DNA of 45,361 nucleotides from positions 1 to 45,361 of IMG/VR virus record IMGVR_UViG_3300044470_000063, one strand, 5' to 3'. Positions within the stretch are counted from its first letter, which is position 1. Every line of letters starts with the position of its first letter. This stretch comes from a virus. The translations under genes were made by a program, and so were the position numbers. Below, in pieces: positions 7,689-35,594 of this stretch. The notes beneath the pieces are model-generated. The model did not search any database and was not told the DNA's origin. It saw nothing but the letters and a program-made list of their open reading frames with translations.

Positions 7689-7766
7689 GCACCCGAATGT
7701 TCCAAGGCAGGCGACGAAGGCTCCAAACTTTCGTGTGGTGGGTTCGATTCCTGACCGGGTGTGCCA
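7689..7766 (+). tRNA. tRNA-Trp (CCA)-like gene, structurally irregular
   Basis: A 7-bp acceptor stem GCACCCG (7689-7695) pairs with CGGGTGT (7756-7762), followed by G and a genomic CCA. The anticodon arm is GAAGG-CTCCAAA-CTTTC with U33 and anticodon CCA (7723-7725), the same loop as E. coli tRNA-Trp. The D-loop has the GG of G18-G19 and the T-loop is TTCGATT. Irregularities: A instead of U at position 8, a D-stem of mostly wobble pairs, one extra base before the anticodon arm, and a T-stem with an extra base and mismatch. It is tRNA-derived, but possibly decayed or an att-site relic. Confidence 0.55.
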
Positions 7767-28028: not shown

Positions 28029-30020
28029 ATGTTTAATCCCGCCATCGAAGACTTGGTACGGCGTAAGGTCGCCGAGTACAACATGAGCATCGGCCACCCG
28101 GTCACGCCCGGTCAGGGCTTCGCGGAAGGTGGCTCGCCGCAGATGGGCATATCGGCCCCCGCTGGCATGATACCCGGCCCGGTGACTCCCGGCGGCGGCG
28201 ACAATACCAAACTTCCGGTACAGACCGGCGAGTACATCATCCCGGTTGATGCGGTAATGGGTATCGGGCTTCGTAATGGTGCTCAGTCTCCTGGCGATGC
28301 GCTGGCAATCGGCAAGTCGATGTTGGACAAGGAAGTCTCCGGGCTGAAAAAGGAGATGGGCAACCCTAATCCGCCGCGCAACGCTGGTATCGGTATCCCG
28401 CCGCAACAGGGGGTAGGATTCGAACAAGGCGGGTCGCCTACCGACAAGGATAAGGCGATTGCCGCAGACAAAGCCATTTCTGCGGCTCCCACGGTCCCGA
28501 ATCCCTCTGCGGGGATTGGTACTCAGAACCTTACCAAGATGAGCAACGGGACGGTGCCCGCACCTACCCCGCCGCCTACCCCTCTGTTCTCCCTCTCCCC
28601 CGGCGACGGCAAGAAGGGCATCGGCATCAACACCGGCAACATCGACCGCTTGGCCGCTCAACCAGGGCGCGTAGGCGGCGTCGCAAACGCGGTTCAGTCG
28701 GTGCAGGACGCATCCACCGGCAACAACGCATTCAACGGCGACGTGGGAAGCCCGATTGTCTCGCTCAATGGCCCACTCAGCCCTGAAGCAGATGCTGCAA
28801 TACGCAACCGCGTCGATTGGTCACCCGGTAGCCAGAACATGAAACCATACGAACAGCAGATGGAAGTGGGGCTGGACGGGGTGCGTCGGCCTCACTATAC
28901 AACTGCGCTCGAAGCATCCAGAGATGCGGTGAAACAGCGACTAGGGTACGTCCCGCTCGACTACGACCAGAACCACTCAAAATATGATGCGTTACTTGCC
29001 AGTACCCATGCCGCAGACGAGGGCGCAAAAGGGATCGGGGCATTGCGGCAATCGGAGATCACCAAGAATCAGGCACAGGCCGACTACATGAAAAAGGGCA
29101 AGCCGGGTACAGGTCAGCCGAACGCTTACAAGGATGTCCGTGCAGCGGAAGAGGAAAAGCTGAACGCCGAAGGCGTCACTGACCCGATTGAGCGCAGCCG
29201 GAGGATATTGGAAGCCGAAGCCAAGTTCAAGAAGGACAGCAGCGGTACAAATGGCAGGATGTACTCGATGCTGAACAAGGAAACGGGGCAGATTGAGTTG
29301 GTTTCGTCCGATGACCGGGCGAAGAACCCCGATAAGTACGGTGCCAGTGCTCAAGACCCCAACGTCAAGGCATGGACTAAAAACGTCGCATACCGTACAG
29401 CCAATGCGAACTTCGTGAACACAATCGACAATTTTGGCTCACTCGTTACCGACATAGCAAAGAGGTACAACCTCAACAGCGACCCGAAACTCGCCAACTA
29501 TACGATTCAGCAACTTATCAAACTCAAGGGCATGGGGTCTGGCGAGGTCGCATCCCTCAACAACGTCCTCACCGGTCTCCGTGGCGAAATGTCCAAGATG
29601 GCAGAGGGCAGTTTAGGTGTGGCCGGTGCCAAGGCTGAGACCGCCAAGAAATACGAGCAGAGCGTCAATGATTCGATGCCGTTGAAAGAGTTACAGAAAA
29701 TGATCCAATGGGCCAGCAAAGAGGGCCAAAGCCGGTTGTCGGGGATCGACGTTGAAACAAACCGGCTGCGCAAGGAATTGGGGATCAAAGAAAAACCGGG
29801 AGAGTCCGCCGGATCATCGGCTCCGCCCAATGGTGATGCCCGCAACGCCGAATTGGTCAAAAAAGACTTGGCGAGGGGGCTTAAACCTTCAACCCTGATT
29901 GGGACTTTACTTAGCCGCAAATTGTCCGAGTCTGAAGTCATCTCAGCCTTGCGCGGTGCGGGCATGAGCGACCAGGCGATAGCCTCGGCGCATGACGAAT
30001 ACGTGGGGAGCACTAAGTAA
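28029..30020 (+). CDS. Putative internal virion (ejection) protein 1, 663 aa
   Basis: A 663-residue protein starting MFNPAIEDLVRRKVAEYNMS. The N-terminal third is Gly/Pro-rich and contains GQGFAEGGSPQMGI and TGEYIIPVDAVMGIGLRN; the remainder is helical and polar (LEASRDAVKQRLGYVPLDY, IERSRRILEAEAKFKKDSSG, MSKMAEGSLGVAGAKAETAK). Large polar Gly/Ala/Pro-rich proteins placed before tail-fibre genes are usually podoviral internal proteins ejected with DNA. No enzyme motif is seen. Preceded by its own promoter; its stop shares one base with the next ATG. Confidence 0.6.
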   Translation: MFNPAIEDLVRRKVAEYNMSIGHPVTPGQGFAEGGSPQMGISAPAGMIPGPVTPGGGDNTKLPVQTGEYIIPVDAVMGIGLRNGAQSPGDALAIGKSMLDKEVSGLKKEMGNPNPPRNAGIGIPPQQGVGFEQGGSPTDKDKAIAADKAISAAPTVPNPSAGIGTQNLTKMSNGTVPAPTPPPTPLFSLSPGDGKKGIGINTGNIDRLAAQPGRVGGVANAVQSVQDASTGNNAFNGDVGSPIVSLNGPLSPEADAAIRNRVDWSPGSQNMKPYEQQMEVGLDGVRRPHYTTALEASRDAVKQRLGYVPLDYDQNHSKYDALLASTHAADEGAKGIGALRQSEITKNQAQADYMKKGKPGTGQPNAYKDVRAAEEEKLNAEGVTDPIERSRRILEAEAKFKKDSSGTNGRMYSMLNKETGQIELVSSDDRAKNPDKYGASAQDPNVKAWTKNVAYRTANANFVNTIDNFGSLVTDIAKRYNLNSDPKLANYTIQQLIKLKGMGSGEVASLNNVLTGLRGEMSKMAEGSLGVAGAKAETAKKYEQSVNDSMPLKELQKMIQWASKEGQSRLSGIDVETNRLRKELGIKEKPGESAGSSAPPNGDARNAELVKKDLARGLKPSTLIGTLLSRKLSESEVISALRGAGMSDQAIASAHDEYVGSTK

Positions 30021-32128
30021 TGGGCGCTTTCGACGATCTCAAGGCAGGTTTGCACGGAGACGACGGCGCGGAGACCTTCGCTTCGCTCAAATCTAAAGTC
30101 GCGCCCGCCCCAACTACCGCAATTGGCAAAGCTACACAATGGGCGTCTACCCCGACGCCCGAAGCAACCAGCATCGGTGACTTCGCTACAAGAGTCGTCC
30201 CCGCGTCGGCAGGCAAGGCCGCTGTCGGCATCCCTTCCGCCGCTTACGGTCTTGGCAAGGAGTTATCGCAAGGATTGTCCGCAGACACCGCCGCAGGCAC
30301 AAGCGGGGGGATCGGCAACGCTCTGTACTATGGCATCGTCCACCCGAACACGTTGAAAGCCGCATGGCAGGGTGTCAAGGGCATCGGCGCGTTCACCGGG
30401 GAGAAGACTGGCATACTTCCCCCCAGCCAGACGGCAACAGGAGACGCCCCGCTGGACTACGGGCAAGGACTTCCTTCGAGCGTCGGCCAATGGGCGCAGC
30501 GCGTCGGGCACCAAGTAATCACGGACCCTGTAGGCGTAGGCATGGCGGCAGAAGGTGCAAAGGGCGCGTTAAAACCTGCCGCTAAAGCCGTTGCTGAATC
30601 GTCGCCGCTTGAAGCTGTGGCCGGTGCGTCCCATGCCGCCGCCAACAAGCTCACCGATATAACACTGAAACAATCATCCACGATAAAACCCAAAACCCGC
30701 GCACAGAACACACAGACCGCATTAGAGGGGGGATTCCTCCCGAATGCAAAAGGTGTGGACTCGCTCAATGCCGCGATTGCCGACACTGAGCAAAAGCTAC
30801 AGGCGGGCATCGCTAGCGGAGATGCTGCCCAAGTTCGCGGGACGCTTGATAGGGCTATCGCAAACGTAGAATCGTTAAGGGACAAGGCCAACCGGTCAAG
30901 CGACCCAGCAAAGAACAACGCGCTTCTTGACGCGGAGATTGAGCGGCTGAGAACGCACCCTATGCTTGACGAAAGCGGGACCGTAGACATGGGCACGCTC
31001 CAACAGGCAAAAGTGGAGCAAGGCCAAGAGATAAGCAAGAAGTATGGGCAACCCGGATACGACGATTTCACGACTCAGGTAGATAAGGCACGAGTCCGTG
31101 GCATGAAGGAAGAGTTGGAATCCCAAATGGACGAGACTTTTCCCGAGCTTGCTGCGACCAACAAGAAATTAAGCGAGTATTACGCGCTGAAGAAAGTGCT
31201 AGACCACGCTGCCAACAGGATAGGCCGCAACCAAGGCGGGCGTATTGGCCTACCCATAAAGTCGGGCGCAGGGGCCACTATCGGCGGCATGTTGGCTGGT
31301 CCGGCAGGCGCGGCAGTCGGTGGCGGCATCGGAGCACTCATCGGGGTAATCGAACATCCTTCTGTCGCCCCGAGATTGGCCCGTCAACTCTACAAACTCA
31401 GCAAGGGTGCCATGACGTACAGCGAGGCGTTAAAGTCCGTCAAATCCCGACTGTCGGGTCTGGTGGAGAGAAAACGCGCCGATGCCGTATTTGCTGATTA
31501 CAGCCCGCCGTCCGACCCGGAAGCATATGATTCTTCGGTCCGCACTCCCGGTGGGACGGCCCCTGAGTTCGAGGGTAACGCCACCCCGAGCGAACCGTTA
31601 GGGTATGGCGAGCGTGAACTTCGCCCCGGCGTTGACACATCGATAGCGCCCACGCTGGATGCGGCATACGACACTGACACTCCGTTATGGCAGCAGAAAA
31701 TGGCGGGCTTCCCGAAGGGTAAACAACCGACTCCCCCACCGCGCAAGCCCGGCAGCGCAGCCGACAACCTCTATCTGCATCGGAGCGATGGTTACGCCGA
31801 GGGCGGCATGGTATCCCACGGCCTCCGCCCCGCCGTCAAGTTCAAGGGCAAGCAGATCGACGGCGAACTAGGCCAGCACCACGCCGACATTCTGAAAGCC
31901 AACAAGATAGGCACCAAGCAACCGCACACTCGCGGATTCGTCACGCCGGAGGGGAAATTTCTCAACCGGCAAGAGGCTGATTCGTGGATGAAGGAGAACC
32001 AGCCGGCAGAGTTCGATAAGTTGGATGCCGGGGCAAAGCGGGAACTGCATAGCCAGGATTTACCGAAGAAGTCGGGCAAGAAAAAACAATCGCGGCAGTG
32101 GAGGGACATTGGGCGAGAGCTTGAATAA
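30020..32128 (+). CDS. Putative internal virion (ejection) protein 2, 702 aa
   Basis: A 702-residue protein starting MGAFDDLKAGLHGDDGAETF. Visible parts: Ala/Gly-rich hydrophobic N-terminal third, coiled coils (about residues 240-310 and 340-400), a glycine-zipper membrane segment (about residues 411-440, GATIGGMLAGPAGAAVGGGI) of the type that inserts into membranes, a Pro-rich linker, and a C-terminal module containing YAEGGMVSHG, IDGELGQHHADILK and FVTPEGKFLNRQEADSWMK. The glycine zipper fits a protein that helps form the DNA channel across the inner membrane. Translationally coupled to the preceding gene. Confidence 0.6.
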   Translation: MGAFDDLKAGLHGDDGAETFASLKSKVAPAPTTAIGKATQWASTPTPEATSIGDFATRVVPASAGKAAVGIPSAAYGLGKELSQGLSADTAAGTSGGIGNALYYGIVHPNTLKAAWQGVKGIGAFTGEKTGILPPSQTATGDAPLDYGQGLPSSVGQWAQRVGHQVITDPVGVGMAAEGAKGALKPAAKAVAESSPLEAVAGASHAAANKLTDITLKQSSTIKPKTRAQNTQTALEGGFLPNAKGVDSLNAAIADTEQKLQAGIASGDAAQVRGTLDRAIANVESLRDKANRSSDPAKNNALLDAEIERLRTHPMLDESGTVDMGTLQQAKVEQGQEISKKYGQPGYDDFTTQVDKARVRGMKEELESQMDETFPELAATNKKLSEYYALKKVLDHAANRIGRNQGGRIGLPIKSGAGATIGGMLAGPAGAAVGGGIGALIGVIEHPSVAPRLARQLYKLSKGAMTYSEALKSVKSRLSGLVERKRADAVFADYSPPSDPEAYDSSVRTPGGTAPEFEGNATPSEPLGYGERELRPGVDTSIAPTLDAAYDTDTPLWQQKMAGFPKGKQPTPPPRKPGSAADNLYLHRSDGYAEGGMVSHGLRPAVKFKGKQIDGELGQHHADILKANKIGTKQPHTRGFVTPEGKFLNRQEADSWMKENQPAEFDKLDAGAKRELHSQDLPKKSGKKKQSRQWRDIGRELE

Positions 32129-32774
32129 AAAGAAGATCGGCATACTCTCTGGTATGGGTGCTGCCGCTGGTGCGCGTTTCTATTCTGTCCTTGTGGAAGA
32201 ATGCCAGCGGCTCGGGGCGAAGTGTGACAGCGATTTCCCCGAGGTGGTTCTATACAACGTATCATCTAAGGGTATGGATGAAACCGGAGTCTGTGATGAA
32301 TCCACGTTGAAGGTTGATCTTCTGGCAGCACTCAAGCATCTGGACGCTTGCGGATGCGAACTGATTATTATGGCGTGCAACACCATCCACATCTATCTCC
32401 GGTTACTTCAGCACCATACCAAGGCCGAGATACTTAACATGGTGGACCTCACCCAACAGTCCGCGATGGCGAACAGTGTCGGCGTGGTATGCTCGCGTAC
32501 ATCTCGGGATCGCGGGCTGTACCTGGGTATCCAAGTCACAGATGAGCAGCAAGATGAAGTGGACGCCATGATCGGACGAGTAATCGCGGGATATTCCGGC
32601 ACCGCGATACATGCCCGCGACAAAATGACGCTCATGGGCATAATCGACTCGCTCTTTGAACGAGGGGCGCAGCGCGTAATCATAGGGTGTACCGAATTAC
32701 CCCTGATTACCGAACGGCGCACAGGCACCATTGACCCCGCCGAGATAGTAATCAGGAGGGCTTTGACGTTATGA
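32121..32774 (+). CDS. Aspartate/glutamate racemase-family enzyme
   Basis: About 217 residues. KIGILSGMGAAAGARFY matches the GILGGMGPxA loop of PLP-independent aspartate racemases. The two catalytic cysteines are in place: Cys86 in MACNTIH and Cys190 in GCTELPLI, the standard CNT and GCTE motifs. Such enzymes move the alpha proton of Asp, Glu or related acids between two Cys thiols. The start is uncertain: TTG 32121 overlaps the previous stop, while TTG 32109 is closer to GGAGGG. The stop overlaps the next ATG (ATGA). A metabolic enzyme between ejection and fibre genes is very unusual and indicates cargo. Confidence 0.85.
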   Translation: MNKKKIGILSGMGAAAGARFYSVLVEECQRLGAKCDSDFPEVVLYNVSSKGMDETGVCDESTLKVDLLAALKHLDACGCELIIMACNTIHIYLRLLQHHTKAEILNMVDLTQQSAMANSVGVVCSRTSRDRGLYLGIQVTDEQQDEVDAMIGRVIAGYSGTAIHARDKMTLMGIIDSLFERGAQRVIIGCTELPLITERRTGTIDPAEIVIRRALTL

Positions 32775-34147
32775 AATTCGTGTTCATCTGCTATTACTTT
32801 TACAGTTACCCCTTGGCTTATCACCTCCACGATGAAGGGTATGAGGTGATTGTTGGAGTCGTAGAGAACAAGAAAGACCTCAAGCTCCCCGGCGATAAGG
32901 ATGACGAGACGCCGCTTGAACGCCGCCGTAGGCTTTCCACTTACAAAGGGATGATCCGCAAGCACTCGCTTGAAGACGTGATGAAGTTCTTGAAATCGGT
33001 CCCGGCAGATGAACGCGATGACTACTTTATTTTCTTCGACTACAGCGATATGTACGTCATTTCGGAACAGATCATGGCGATGGGGTTCAAAAACGGAATG
33101 TTCCCCACCAAGTTCTACTACGAAATGGAAAAAGAGCGGGACAAGGCCAAGGATTTCGTCAAGAAGCACTACGACAGGATCGTAGTGGAGGCTGAATACC
33201 CCTTCAGTAAAGCCCAAGACGCCATTGACTTTGTGGAGGATTCCGAGGACATATGGGTACTGAAGGGCAACGGCGACGTGGGGGCTAAAACAGTGGTCCC
33301 TTATTCTTCTGACCTTTCACACGCCAAGAAGATGATAAAGGACGCGCTCATCAAGGACGGGAACCTGTACGAGATGGGCGGATTTATCTTGGAAAAGAAG
33401 ATCCAGAATTGCCTAGAATTGACGCCAGTTATGGTTTTCTACAACGGAGAGTATGTTTATTCCCTTGTAGAGCTTGAAAACAAGGAATATGGAGCCGGCA
33501 ACATTGGCATCCAGAAGGGCGGCAATCAGGCACTTTCCATTCGCACCAAGAAGAATTGCGAACTGAACGCTATCGCCTTCCCTGAAATCGTGTATCAGCT
33601 CGCAAAGAAACAACCGGGCTTGTCGATCTATGACGCGGGACTACTCTACGACGGCAAGAATTTCTACTTCACTGAGTTCTGCGCCATGAGGTTCGGTTAT
33701 GATGGTATATTCTCGGAGATCGTCATGCGAGATGACGGAGAACCGTTCGTGGGCGCGTACTTCGAGGATGTCATAAACGGAGTCTCGCCGCTCAAAAACA
33801 AGTATGGCGTCTCGGTCCGGCTGTTCAACAACGAGGGCAACCGGGAGTGCCTACGCGAACCCAAAGACGACATCCCGATCATGTGGTATCCCTCTGTAGA
33901 AGACAATATGTTCCTCTATTCGGTCAAAAAACAAGGCGACGACATTATGACTGTAGGCGGAATGGACTTCGTGGGGTGCATGACGGGTGCTGCCGATACA
34001 CTTGAAGCCGCAGTCAATAAGACATACGCTCGTGTCGATAAGTTCGATTTTGAGCAACTATACTACCGCTACAAAGGCGATTTCTTGGCAACGGACTACA
34101 AAACATCCATCCCTAACCGGCTAGAGGCCATAAAGAGGTTCCTATGA
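32771..34147 (+). CDS. ATP-grasp ligase related to PurD (GAR synthetase)
   Basis: A 458-residue protein. An N-terminal pre-ATP-grasp domain (MKFVFICYYFYSYPLAYHLH) is followed by an ATP-grasp: VLKGNGDVGAK (Lys165 and Gly loop), GGFILEKKI (Glu209, Lys210), FYFTEFCAMRFGYDG (metal-ligand Glu302, then RFG), and a C-terminal VGCMTGAADTLEAAVNKTY plus YYRYKGDF. The order matches PurD-type phosphoribosylamine-glycine ligases, but it lacks housekeeping context and diverges at the substrate loop, so the likely reaction is ATP-dependent ligation of an acid to an amine of unknown identity. Four-base overlaps on both sides tie it to the racemase and the next gene. Confidence 0.8.
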   Translation: MKFVFICYYFYSYPLAYHLHDEGYEVIVGVVENKKDLKLPGDKDDETPLERRRRLSTYKGMIRKHSLEDVMKFLKSVPADERDDYFIFFDYSDMYVISEQIMAMGFKNGMFPTKFYYEMEKERDKAKDFVKKHYDRIVVEAEYPFSKAQDAIDFVEDSEDIWVLKGNGDVGAKTVVPYSSDLSHAKKMIKDALIKDGNLYEMGGFILEKKIQNCLELTPVMVFYNGEYVYSLVELENKEYGAGNIGIQKGGNQALSIRTKKNCELNAIAFPEIVYQLAKKQPGLSIYDAGLLYDGKNFYFTEFCAMRFGYDGIFSEIVMRDDGEPFVGAYFEDVINGVSPLKNKYGVSVRLFNNEGNRECLREPKDDIPIMWYPSVEDNMFLYSVKKQGDDIMTVGGMDFVGCMTGAADTLEAAVNKTYARVDKFDFEQLYYRYKGDFLATDYKTSIPNRLEAIKRFL

Positions 34148-34626
34148 ACATTCAAGTAAAAACCGTCACCAAAATGGAAGACTTCCCCATCCACACTACG
34201 ACTGTCGGCTATTGGGCCGAAGGCTCAGAAGGTCTCGCAGTGTATCTATTCGCGCTTTCAGATTGGCGCTTCACCCTTGCCGTTCTCTTCCATGAAATCA
34301 TCGAATGGGCGATCACCAAGGCGGCAGGCATAACAACCGTAGAGTGCGACATTTTTGATGAAGCATGGGAAGACGATTGTGATTCCGGTGTTCGGTCCCT
34401 TGCAGACGAACCGGGTGATGATCCCGCTTGCCCTTACCACCGGGGCCACATGTGGGGAAGTCAGTTCGAGCGACTGGTTATCTTCCTTTCCGGCGCTTCG
34501 TGGAGCGAATATTTGGACGAATGCGGTCGCATTTGCTCATGCGAGTATAACGAACCGGAACAAGACAAACTCATTGGCGGGGAGTGGATAGCGTACTCGG
34601 AAGATGTGGAACGGAATCGAGTCTGA
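34144..34626 (+). CDS. HEIIE-motif protein, third gene of cargo operon
   Basis: A 160-residue protein starting MNIQVKTVTKMEDFPIHTTT. It has a helix AVLFHEIIEWAITKAAG (His50, Glu51, Glu54), DEPGDDPACPYHRGHMWG with His99 and His102, and QFERLVIFLSGASWSEYLDE. The HExxE pattern followed by two more histidines is compatible with a metal-dependent hydrolase or zincin-like fold, but it is not the canonical HExxH. It overlaps the ATP-grasp stop by 4 nt, so it is part of the same translational unit. The product family is seen in phage cargo regions, but its function is unknown to me. Confidence 0.6.
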   Translation: MNIQVKTVTKMEDFPIHTTTVGYWAEGSEGLAVYLFALSDWRFTLAVLFHEIIEWAITKAAGITTVECDIFDEAWEDDCDSGVRSLADEPGDDPACPYHRGHMWGSQFERLVIFLSGASWSEYLDECGRICSCEYNEPEQDKLIGGEWIAYSEDVERNRV

Positions 34627-35231: not shown

Positions 35232-35594
35232 ATGCAGACCTACAACATAGGCATCAACGGCGACGACGGCATGAGCGGACCGCCGATTATTCAGGGTTCG
35301 ACCTTCCAACTTCCCTTCACCGTGACCAACGTGTTTTCCGCAGCGGGCGTCGGCGCTACCATTCGGGGCCAACTCCGCACCGATTACACGGCGTCTGCCG
35401 ATGTCCCTTTCTCCTGCGCCATCCTCACGGCTACTGCCGACCTCCTCACATGCATGGCAACTCTCGACGCTACGACCACCGCCGCGATGACTCCCGGCAA
35501 GTACGTCTACGACATCGAGATCCAGGGCGAGGACGGCTTTGTACTGAAGCCCTTGCGCGGTCGTGCACTCGTACTGCCCGAGGTTACGCGGTGA
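35232..35594 (+). CDS. Tail/baseplate structural protein, 120 aa
   Basis: A 120-residue beta-rich protein starting MQTYNIGINGDDGMSGPPII, with STFQLPFTVTNVFSAAGVG and GKYVYDIEIQGEDGFVLKPL. The 'P..I..G.TF..P...T......T..G.LR' lead and the 'GKYVYDIEI' strand are like the N-terminal Ig-type domain of phage baseplate and BppU-type proteins that attach fibres. No enzymatic residues. Ribosome site GCGGAGGAAGTA is inside the leader hairpin. Overlaps the next gene by 4 nt. Confidence 0.6.
   Translation: MQTYNIGINGDDGMSGPPIIQGSTFQLPFTVTNVFSAAGVGATIRGQLRTDYTASADVPFSCAILTATADLLTCMATLDATTTAAMTPGKYVYDIEIQGEDGFVLKPLRGRALVLPEVTR

Follow-up and report, generated by a model that had tools for sequence, protein, structure and literature searches.

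A tightly packed operon among the virion genes of an uncultured phage, encoding an amino-acid racemase, an ATP-grasp ligase and a small protein with a HEIIE motif, raises the question of whether the three proteins form one enzyme system, and of what such a system would modify. The window, i.e. the whole 45,361-nucleotide stretch that was analysed, is a 45.4-kb IMG/VR virus record with podovirus-type genes. The sequence-only reading had placed the operon in a virion gene region, and this was borne out: families for terminase, portal, major head protein and head closure lie upstream of the operon, at 9.8-20.6 kb, and one of the tail-fibre-assembly type lies downstream. The portal protein of the window was at most 28% identical to that of any named phage (best match: Rhizobium phage RHph_TM3_14A), and a search baited with the terminase gave no matches. 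One tRNA-Trp (CCA) gene was located at 7689-7766. The features of the operon and its surroundings are as follows.

30020..32128, + strand: 702-aa virion-module gene directly 5′ of the racemase gene, putatively of DNA-ejection/internal-virion type, judging by position and composition
32121..32774, + strand: P0001, Asp/Glu-type amino-acid racemase (TTG start, both catalytic Cys, PF01177)
32771..34147, + strand: P0002, PurD-fold ATP-grasp ligase, a divergent member of an uncultured-phage family (family profile, AF2 model, tree)
34144..34626, + strand: P0003, HEIIE protein, a small zincin-like putative metalloprotein and partner of the ATP-grasp ligase (family profile, invariant residues)
35232..35594, + strand: start of the downstream tail-fibre block (phrog_1084, E 1e-15; phrog_3304 'L-shaped tail fiber protein assembly', E 6e-7)

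Operon layout and the three gene products

The racemase, ATP-grasp and HEIIE ORFs follow one another on the + strand, uninterrupted and tightly packed. ATGA overlaps had been claimed for all three genes; both internal junctions were indeed exact 4-nt ATGA overlaps (racemase/ligase, 32771-32774; ligase/HEIIE, 34144-34147), preceded by AGGAGG and AGAGG-like ribosome-binding sites, whereas the racemase gene starts with TTG at 32121 and shares 8 nt, stop codon included, with the 702-aa gene before it. The product of that preceding gene had no PHROG match. The GC content was 0.53 for the racemase gene and 0.49 and 0.52 for the ligase and HEIIE genes, compared with 0.59 for the flanking large gene. 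Across 32001-34000 (racemase and ligase), GC fell to 0.51 against 0.55-0.60 on either side.

P0001 passed Pfam PF01177 with 64.3 bits (cut-off 31) and contained both catalytic Cys regions, MACNTIH and GCTELPLI, confirming the racemase assignment made from the letters alone. Its alignment with the aspartate racemase 1jfl began at residue 4, which supports the TTG start at 32121. The best profile was that of the cysteate racemase CuyB (NF052483) with 99.3 bits, under the equivalog cut-off of 190. P0001 thus shares both Cys regions, length and start with the Asp/Glu/cysteate racemases, but differs from them in its low identity to the nearest ones found (26-34%), in its score below the CuyB cut-off and in its phage operon setting. 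The matches to phage racemases, at 26-34% identity, lay on contigs of fecal phages or on fragments of bacterial type and were set aside.

The second gene had been described as PurD-like, and the searches agreed: P0002 scored 32.2 bits against the purD equivalog (TIGR00877), below the cut-off of 288, matched PurD 5vev in the PDB with an E value of 1e-6, and reached 278 bits against the phage-family profile, the seed of which included P0002 itself. The AF2 model (pLDDT 79, pTM 0.82) aligned with GAR synthetase 2yw2 over 379 residues (Z 25.7, rmsd 3.9), indicating a predicted whole-length PurD fold. The profile of the ligase family matched PDB PurD 2xcl end to end (E 9e-50), and GARS_A and GARS_C domains were found in relatives of P0002. 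The ATP-site residues K165, E216, E236, K238, E302 and R307 are conserved in the family and kept in P0002.

P0003 was recognised by the HEIIE-family profile, built from 70 members with P0003 excluded, at about 84 bits (E 2.6e-28). The presence of HEIIE and of a later conserved His, His102, was in accordance with what had been read from the sequence. All 11 residues invariant in 54 HEIIE sequences are kept in P0003 (H50, E51, E54, D72, G91, D92, D93, P97, Y98, H102 and E109); HExxE occurred in 54/54 of them and the HExxH of zincin peptidases was absent. In Pfam, PHROGs and NCBIfam, P0003 had no match better than E 0.39. The HEIIE model (pLDDT 86) has strands leading into a predicted active-site helix that bears the HE. 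Its structural matches were all weak, and those at the top were zincins: 6ait was best by VIA with Z 4.4, followed by 7t5t (CapP, 3.9), 6mdw (SPRTN, 3.7) and 4jix (jannalysin, 3.6), and Foldseek gave 4l7a at E 0.057 as its best match, with none below 0.001. The order of strands and HE helix resembles minigluzincin/zincin folds (SPRTN, jannalysin, BepA, CapP, YfcM/EpmC), but the family differs from these in having HExxE for HExxH and additional invariant GDD, PY, His and Glu residues, and the scores are too low for membership. The HEIIE protein is likely to bind metal. E. coli YfcM/EpmC with Co(II) (3wtr), a hydroxylase for which the fold and a 2-His-1-carboxylate site have been described (PMC4231759), matched the model with Z 2.6 at rank 19, below several peptidases, and this likeness of the modelled protein is taken as a lead only.

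Pairing of the ligase and HEIIE genes in uncultured phages

Direct searches with P0001, P0002 and P0003 yielded no IMG/VR relatives and only ordinary matches in phages, because the members in the window are too divergent. The families were reached through a weak plasmid match of P0002 to a Halarchaeum protein, which led to a PurD-like group including Roseomonas and the metagenomic phage MW202796; an alignment of this group identified 85 IMG/VR loci. The first HEIIE homologue was found at L105, adjoining the ligase in the gene order of the window. A degenerate DNA pattern for GDDxxAPYxxEH was then used to collect the HEIIE family and gave 89 IMG/VR stretches, with one HEIIE family in 80/80 loci checked. 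One earlier alignment (A2) had yielded poor search patterns, and a DNA pattern for HEIIEWA retrieved 27 unrelated proteins instead of the family; these were reused as controls. Cellular homologues of the ligase were seen on plasmids (L040, L043 and L044; Halarchaeum, Sphingomonas, where it is split, and Roseomonas).

An ATP-grasp gene was directly adjacent on the same strand in 47 of 88 viral HEIIE loci, in the order HEIIE-ligase in 25 and ligase-HEIIE in 22, and 28 of the 47 pairs showed the exact 4-nt overlap. In a further 14 of the 88 loci the ligase lay within the same stretch without being adjacent. After dereplication at 70% identity, 30/69 HEIIE loci were still adjacent to a ligase. Where the HEIIE record had no ligase neighbour, a ligase was found elsewhere in 13/14 records of at least 19 kb, compared with 0/8 short fragments; it was present in 0/29 control records, of which 22 were IMG/VR contigs and 7 were phages. 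The association of the two genes is therefore strongly beyond chance. A mirror-tree comparison revealed no correlated divergence of the two families (r = -0.05; 1320 of 2000 permutations as high). The HEIIE gene was present in only 3/28 further ATP-grasp records and, since the ATP-grasp gene is the more widespread, HEIIE looks like an accessory to the ligase: it nearly always accompanies the ligase, and the ligase is often alone. In L079 (7308-7643), L082 (7307-7654) and L086 (7332-7988) a small Cys protein of the YNAxCSMCGRKRKAS type lies directly 3′ of the ligase, in the slot that HEIIE takes in L105.

A large ORF ended on or beside the ligase start in 35/38 non-redundant loci, the overlap being exactly 4 nt in 21, and tail-fibre-type genes often lay downstream. 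At some HEIIE loci the pair instead followed different large structural-block genes. One of the large upstream proteins was weakly similar (E 0.004) to phrog_770 'DNA transfer protein' and ten out of ten others had no PHROG match; the label 'ejection protein' is therefore an inferred one. The window has the large gene-ligase layout of its relatives, with the racemase inserted in between.

Recurrence in other phages had been set beforehand as the observation by which the three-gene idea should stand or fall, and it separated the trio, which did not recur, from the ligase-HEIIE pair, which did. A D-amino-acid conjugate made by all three genes, proposed as a general system, was not supported by a profile search, in which PF01177 was found in 0/100 related viral records carrying the other genes; an identical search detected the racemase in the window as a positive control. 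Many of these 100 records are fragments, so that the racemase could still co-occur rarely. As it recurs nowhere with the pair, its link to the pair rests on one operon, and by its distribution among these records it looks like a local addition in this one phage and not part of the recurrent set. The reading of the operon as a biosynthetic or modification module built round a ligase was thus supported for the second and third genes, which recur in diverse phages, and not for the racemase as a member. The ligase and HEIIE genes are a recurrent, previously undescribed module of many uncultured phages, situated near particle-building genes.

The HEIIE family was also present in contigs binned as Thaumarchaeota/Nitrososphaerales (L214, L220, L222, L224, L227 and L228), with an ATP-grasp gene elsewhere in most of these MAGs. 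These contigs may possibly be archaeal viruses.

Relation to PurD and to known phage ligase clusters

The ligase family resembles PurD/GAR synthetase (TIGR00877; 2yw2, 2xcl, 1gso) in its full-length fold, its domain order and the Lys and Glu of the ATP-grasp site. It differs in lacking REHA, in having Thr or Cys for the Mg-binding Asn, and in its own clade, its phage structural context and its metalloprotein partner. The N-domain motif GxGGREHA was present in 5/6 PurD controls and in 0/43 family members, and the metal motif ExNxRxG in 6/6 and 0/43, respectively. At the position of the Mg-co-binding Asn of PurD (ExN), 47/55 family sequences have Thr and 7/55 Cys, and catalysis could therefore be altered or lost. 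The catalytic residues, which had been singled out for checking, were thus present in the racemase and largely so in the ligase, with the ATP site kept and the ExN Asn lost. In the tree, 43 ligase-family sequences split from PurD with a support of 100. P0002 fell on the phage side of this split; its branch is very long (2.56), and where it belongs within the phage family is uncertain.

In three relatives the ATP-grasp gene carried in-frame inserts beginning with Cys and ending in Asn-Thr or Gln-Cys, situated at two catalytic motifs, TGEMG/T and EAT/CRPG, within open frames of 748-823 aa. The carriers are two thaumarchaeal MAG contigs (L246 and L247) and the IMG/VR record behind L158 (L248). 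Conserved active sites are the usual home of inteins, and from their boundaries and sites these inserts are probably inteins. Putative inteins in catalytic motifs support an active ligase.

Members of the ligase and HEIIE families had no confident PHROG match, and the best Pfam match of the HEIIE family was E 0.003. A search of 50,697 phage records found the ligase family in one metagenomic genome, the other matches being bacterial-type PurD at ~25%, and the HEIIE family in none. No named phage isolate with either family was found, neither is represented by a dedicated Pfam or PHROG family, and a literature search under the terms tried gave no account of the pair. A class of phage amidoligase/ATP-grasp clusters was reportedly described by Iyer et al. 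in 2009. Clustered ATP-grasp/amidoligase genes are likewise encoded by LUZ24-like phages (UFV-P2 ORFs 23, 25, 28 and neighbours; PMC3890496), but these clusters, as described in the parts of the UFV-P2 account that were consulted, differ in comprising a COOH-NH2 ligase, an Amidoligase_2 and a glutamine amidotransferase in the early region, and those parts report no PurD-type ligase or HEIIE protein (PMC3890496). The Pfam domains of COOH-NH2 ligase and Amidoligase_2 had no match in the three proteins of the window at E values up to 1.

Proposed function and alternative explanations

Starting from the pairing, its position and 4-nt coupling, and from the predicted fold of the ligase, the conserved residues and the lost PurD motifs, we propose a conserved two-gene module in which an ATP-dependent amide ligase and a metal-dependent partner act late in infection, fed in this phage with a D-amino acid; we give this proposal about an even chance of being correct. 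The PurD-fold ligase, with its changed substrate site, would activate a carboxylate using ATP and couple it to the amine of an acceptor other than phosphoribosylamine. The small zincin-like metalloprotein would act on the same substrate or on the product, presumably in a metal-dependent manner. The target may be a protein associated with the virion or a small molecule produced while particles are assembled, and action late in infection is most likely because the pair sits among particle genes. The racemase inserted here would probably supply the D-form of an acidic amino acid to the ligase.

The ligase could instead be a diverged PurD that still works and raises purine synthesis in the host to supply phage DNA, as the full-length fold and the end-to-end profile match would allow. 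An ocean-virus survey has reported a virus-enriched phosphoribosylamine-glycine ligase (GART, K11787) as a new auxiliary purine gene in marine viruses (PMC11360552). A clade separated from PurD with a support of 100, the loss of REHA and ExN in 43/43 family members, a score of 32 bits far under the purD cut-off of 288, and a fixed place by large structural-block genes with a recurrent small-metalloprotein partner speak against this role, which we regard as improbable. A modification of virion proteins or peptides resembling that of EF-P by EpmA/EpmB/EpmC, in which the ligase adds an amino acid, HEIIE hydroxylates or trims it and the racemase takes the part of the aminomutase, would reproduce the logic of an amino-acid-altering enzyme, a ligase and a metalloenzyme, and YfcM/EpmC with Co(II) and its 2-His-1-carboxylate site (PMC4231759) was among the matches of the HEIIE model. 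However, that match was weak and ranked behind several peptidases, the ligase is of the PurD type and not of the tRNA-synthetase type, and the racemase occurred in the window only, so that this scheme is unlikely.

The resemblance of the HEIIE model to small zincin peptidases such as CapP, SPRTN and jannalysin, and the proximity of the pair to probable ejection proteins, would also suit an anti-defence or host-takeover pair, packaged or made late, in which HEIIE would be a protease of the zincin type and the ligase would produce a signal or decoy molecule. The motif is, however, HExxE and not the HExxH of zincin peptidases, every structural score was weak and no defence-island context was seen, and we attach little credence to this explanation. 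Similarly small is the probability that the three genes are independent morons packed together by chance. Phage genomes are compact and gene overlaps common, the racemase was never with the pair elsewhere, and all three genes are lower in GC (0.49-0.53) than their neighbours. For the second and third genes this is contradicted by their adjacency in 30 non-redundant loci in both orders, by the ligase in 13/14 of the longer remaining records and by its absence from the controls; the racemase alone may still be an independent moron. A role in DNA modification was considered and dropped for want of specific support.

The two-gene module thus adds two protein families, for which no Pfam or PHROG family is named, that travel together in dozens of phages, mostly within the structural block. 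More tentatively, and with some doubt, it may be a new enzyme system, belonging to uncultured tailed phages and some archaeal-MAG contigs, in which a repurposed PurD ligates an amino acid onto a target of virion or host origin and a small HExxE metalloenzyme processes it, the D-isomer being provided in this phage by its own racemase. Defined proteins are now at hand for the biochemistry of this putative phage modification. The findings are concrete grounds for questioning whether every viral PurD-like gene is a purine gene; if the proposed system is real, many viral 'purD' purine genes in metagenome surveys may carry the wrong name.
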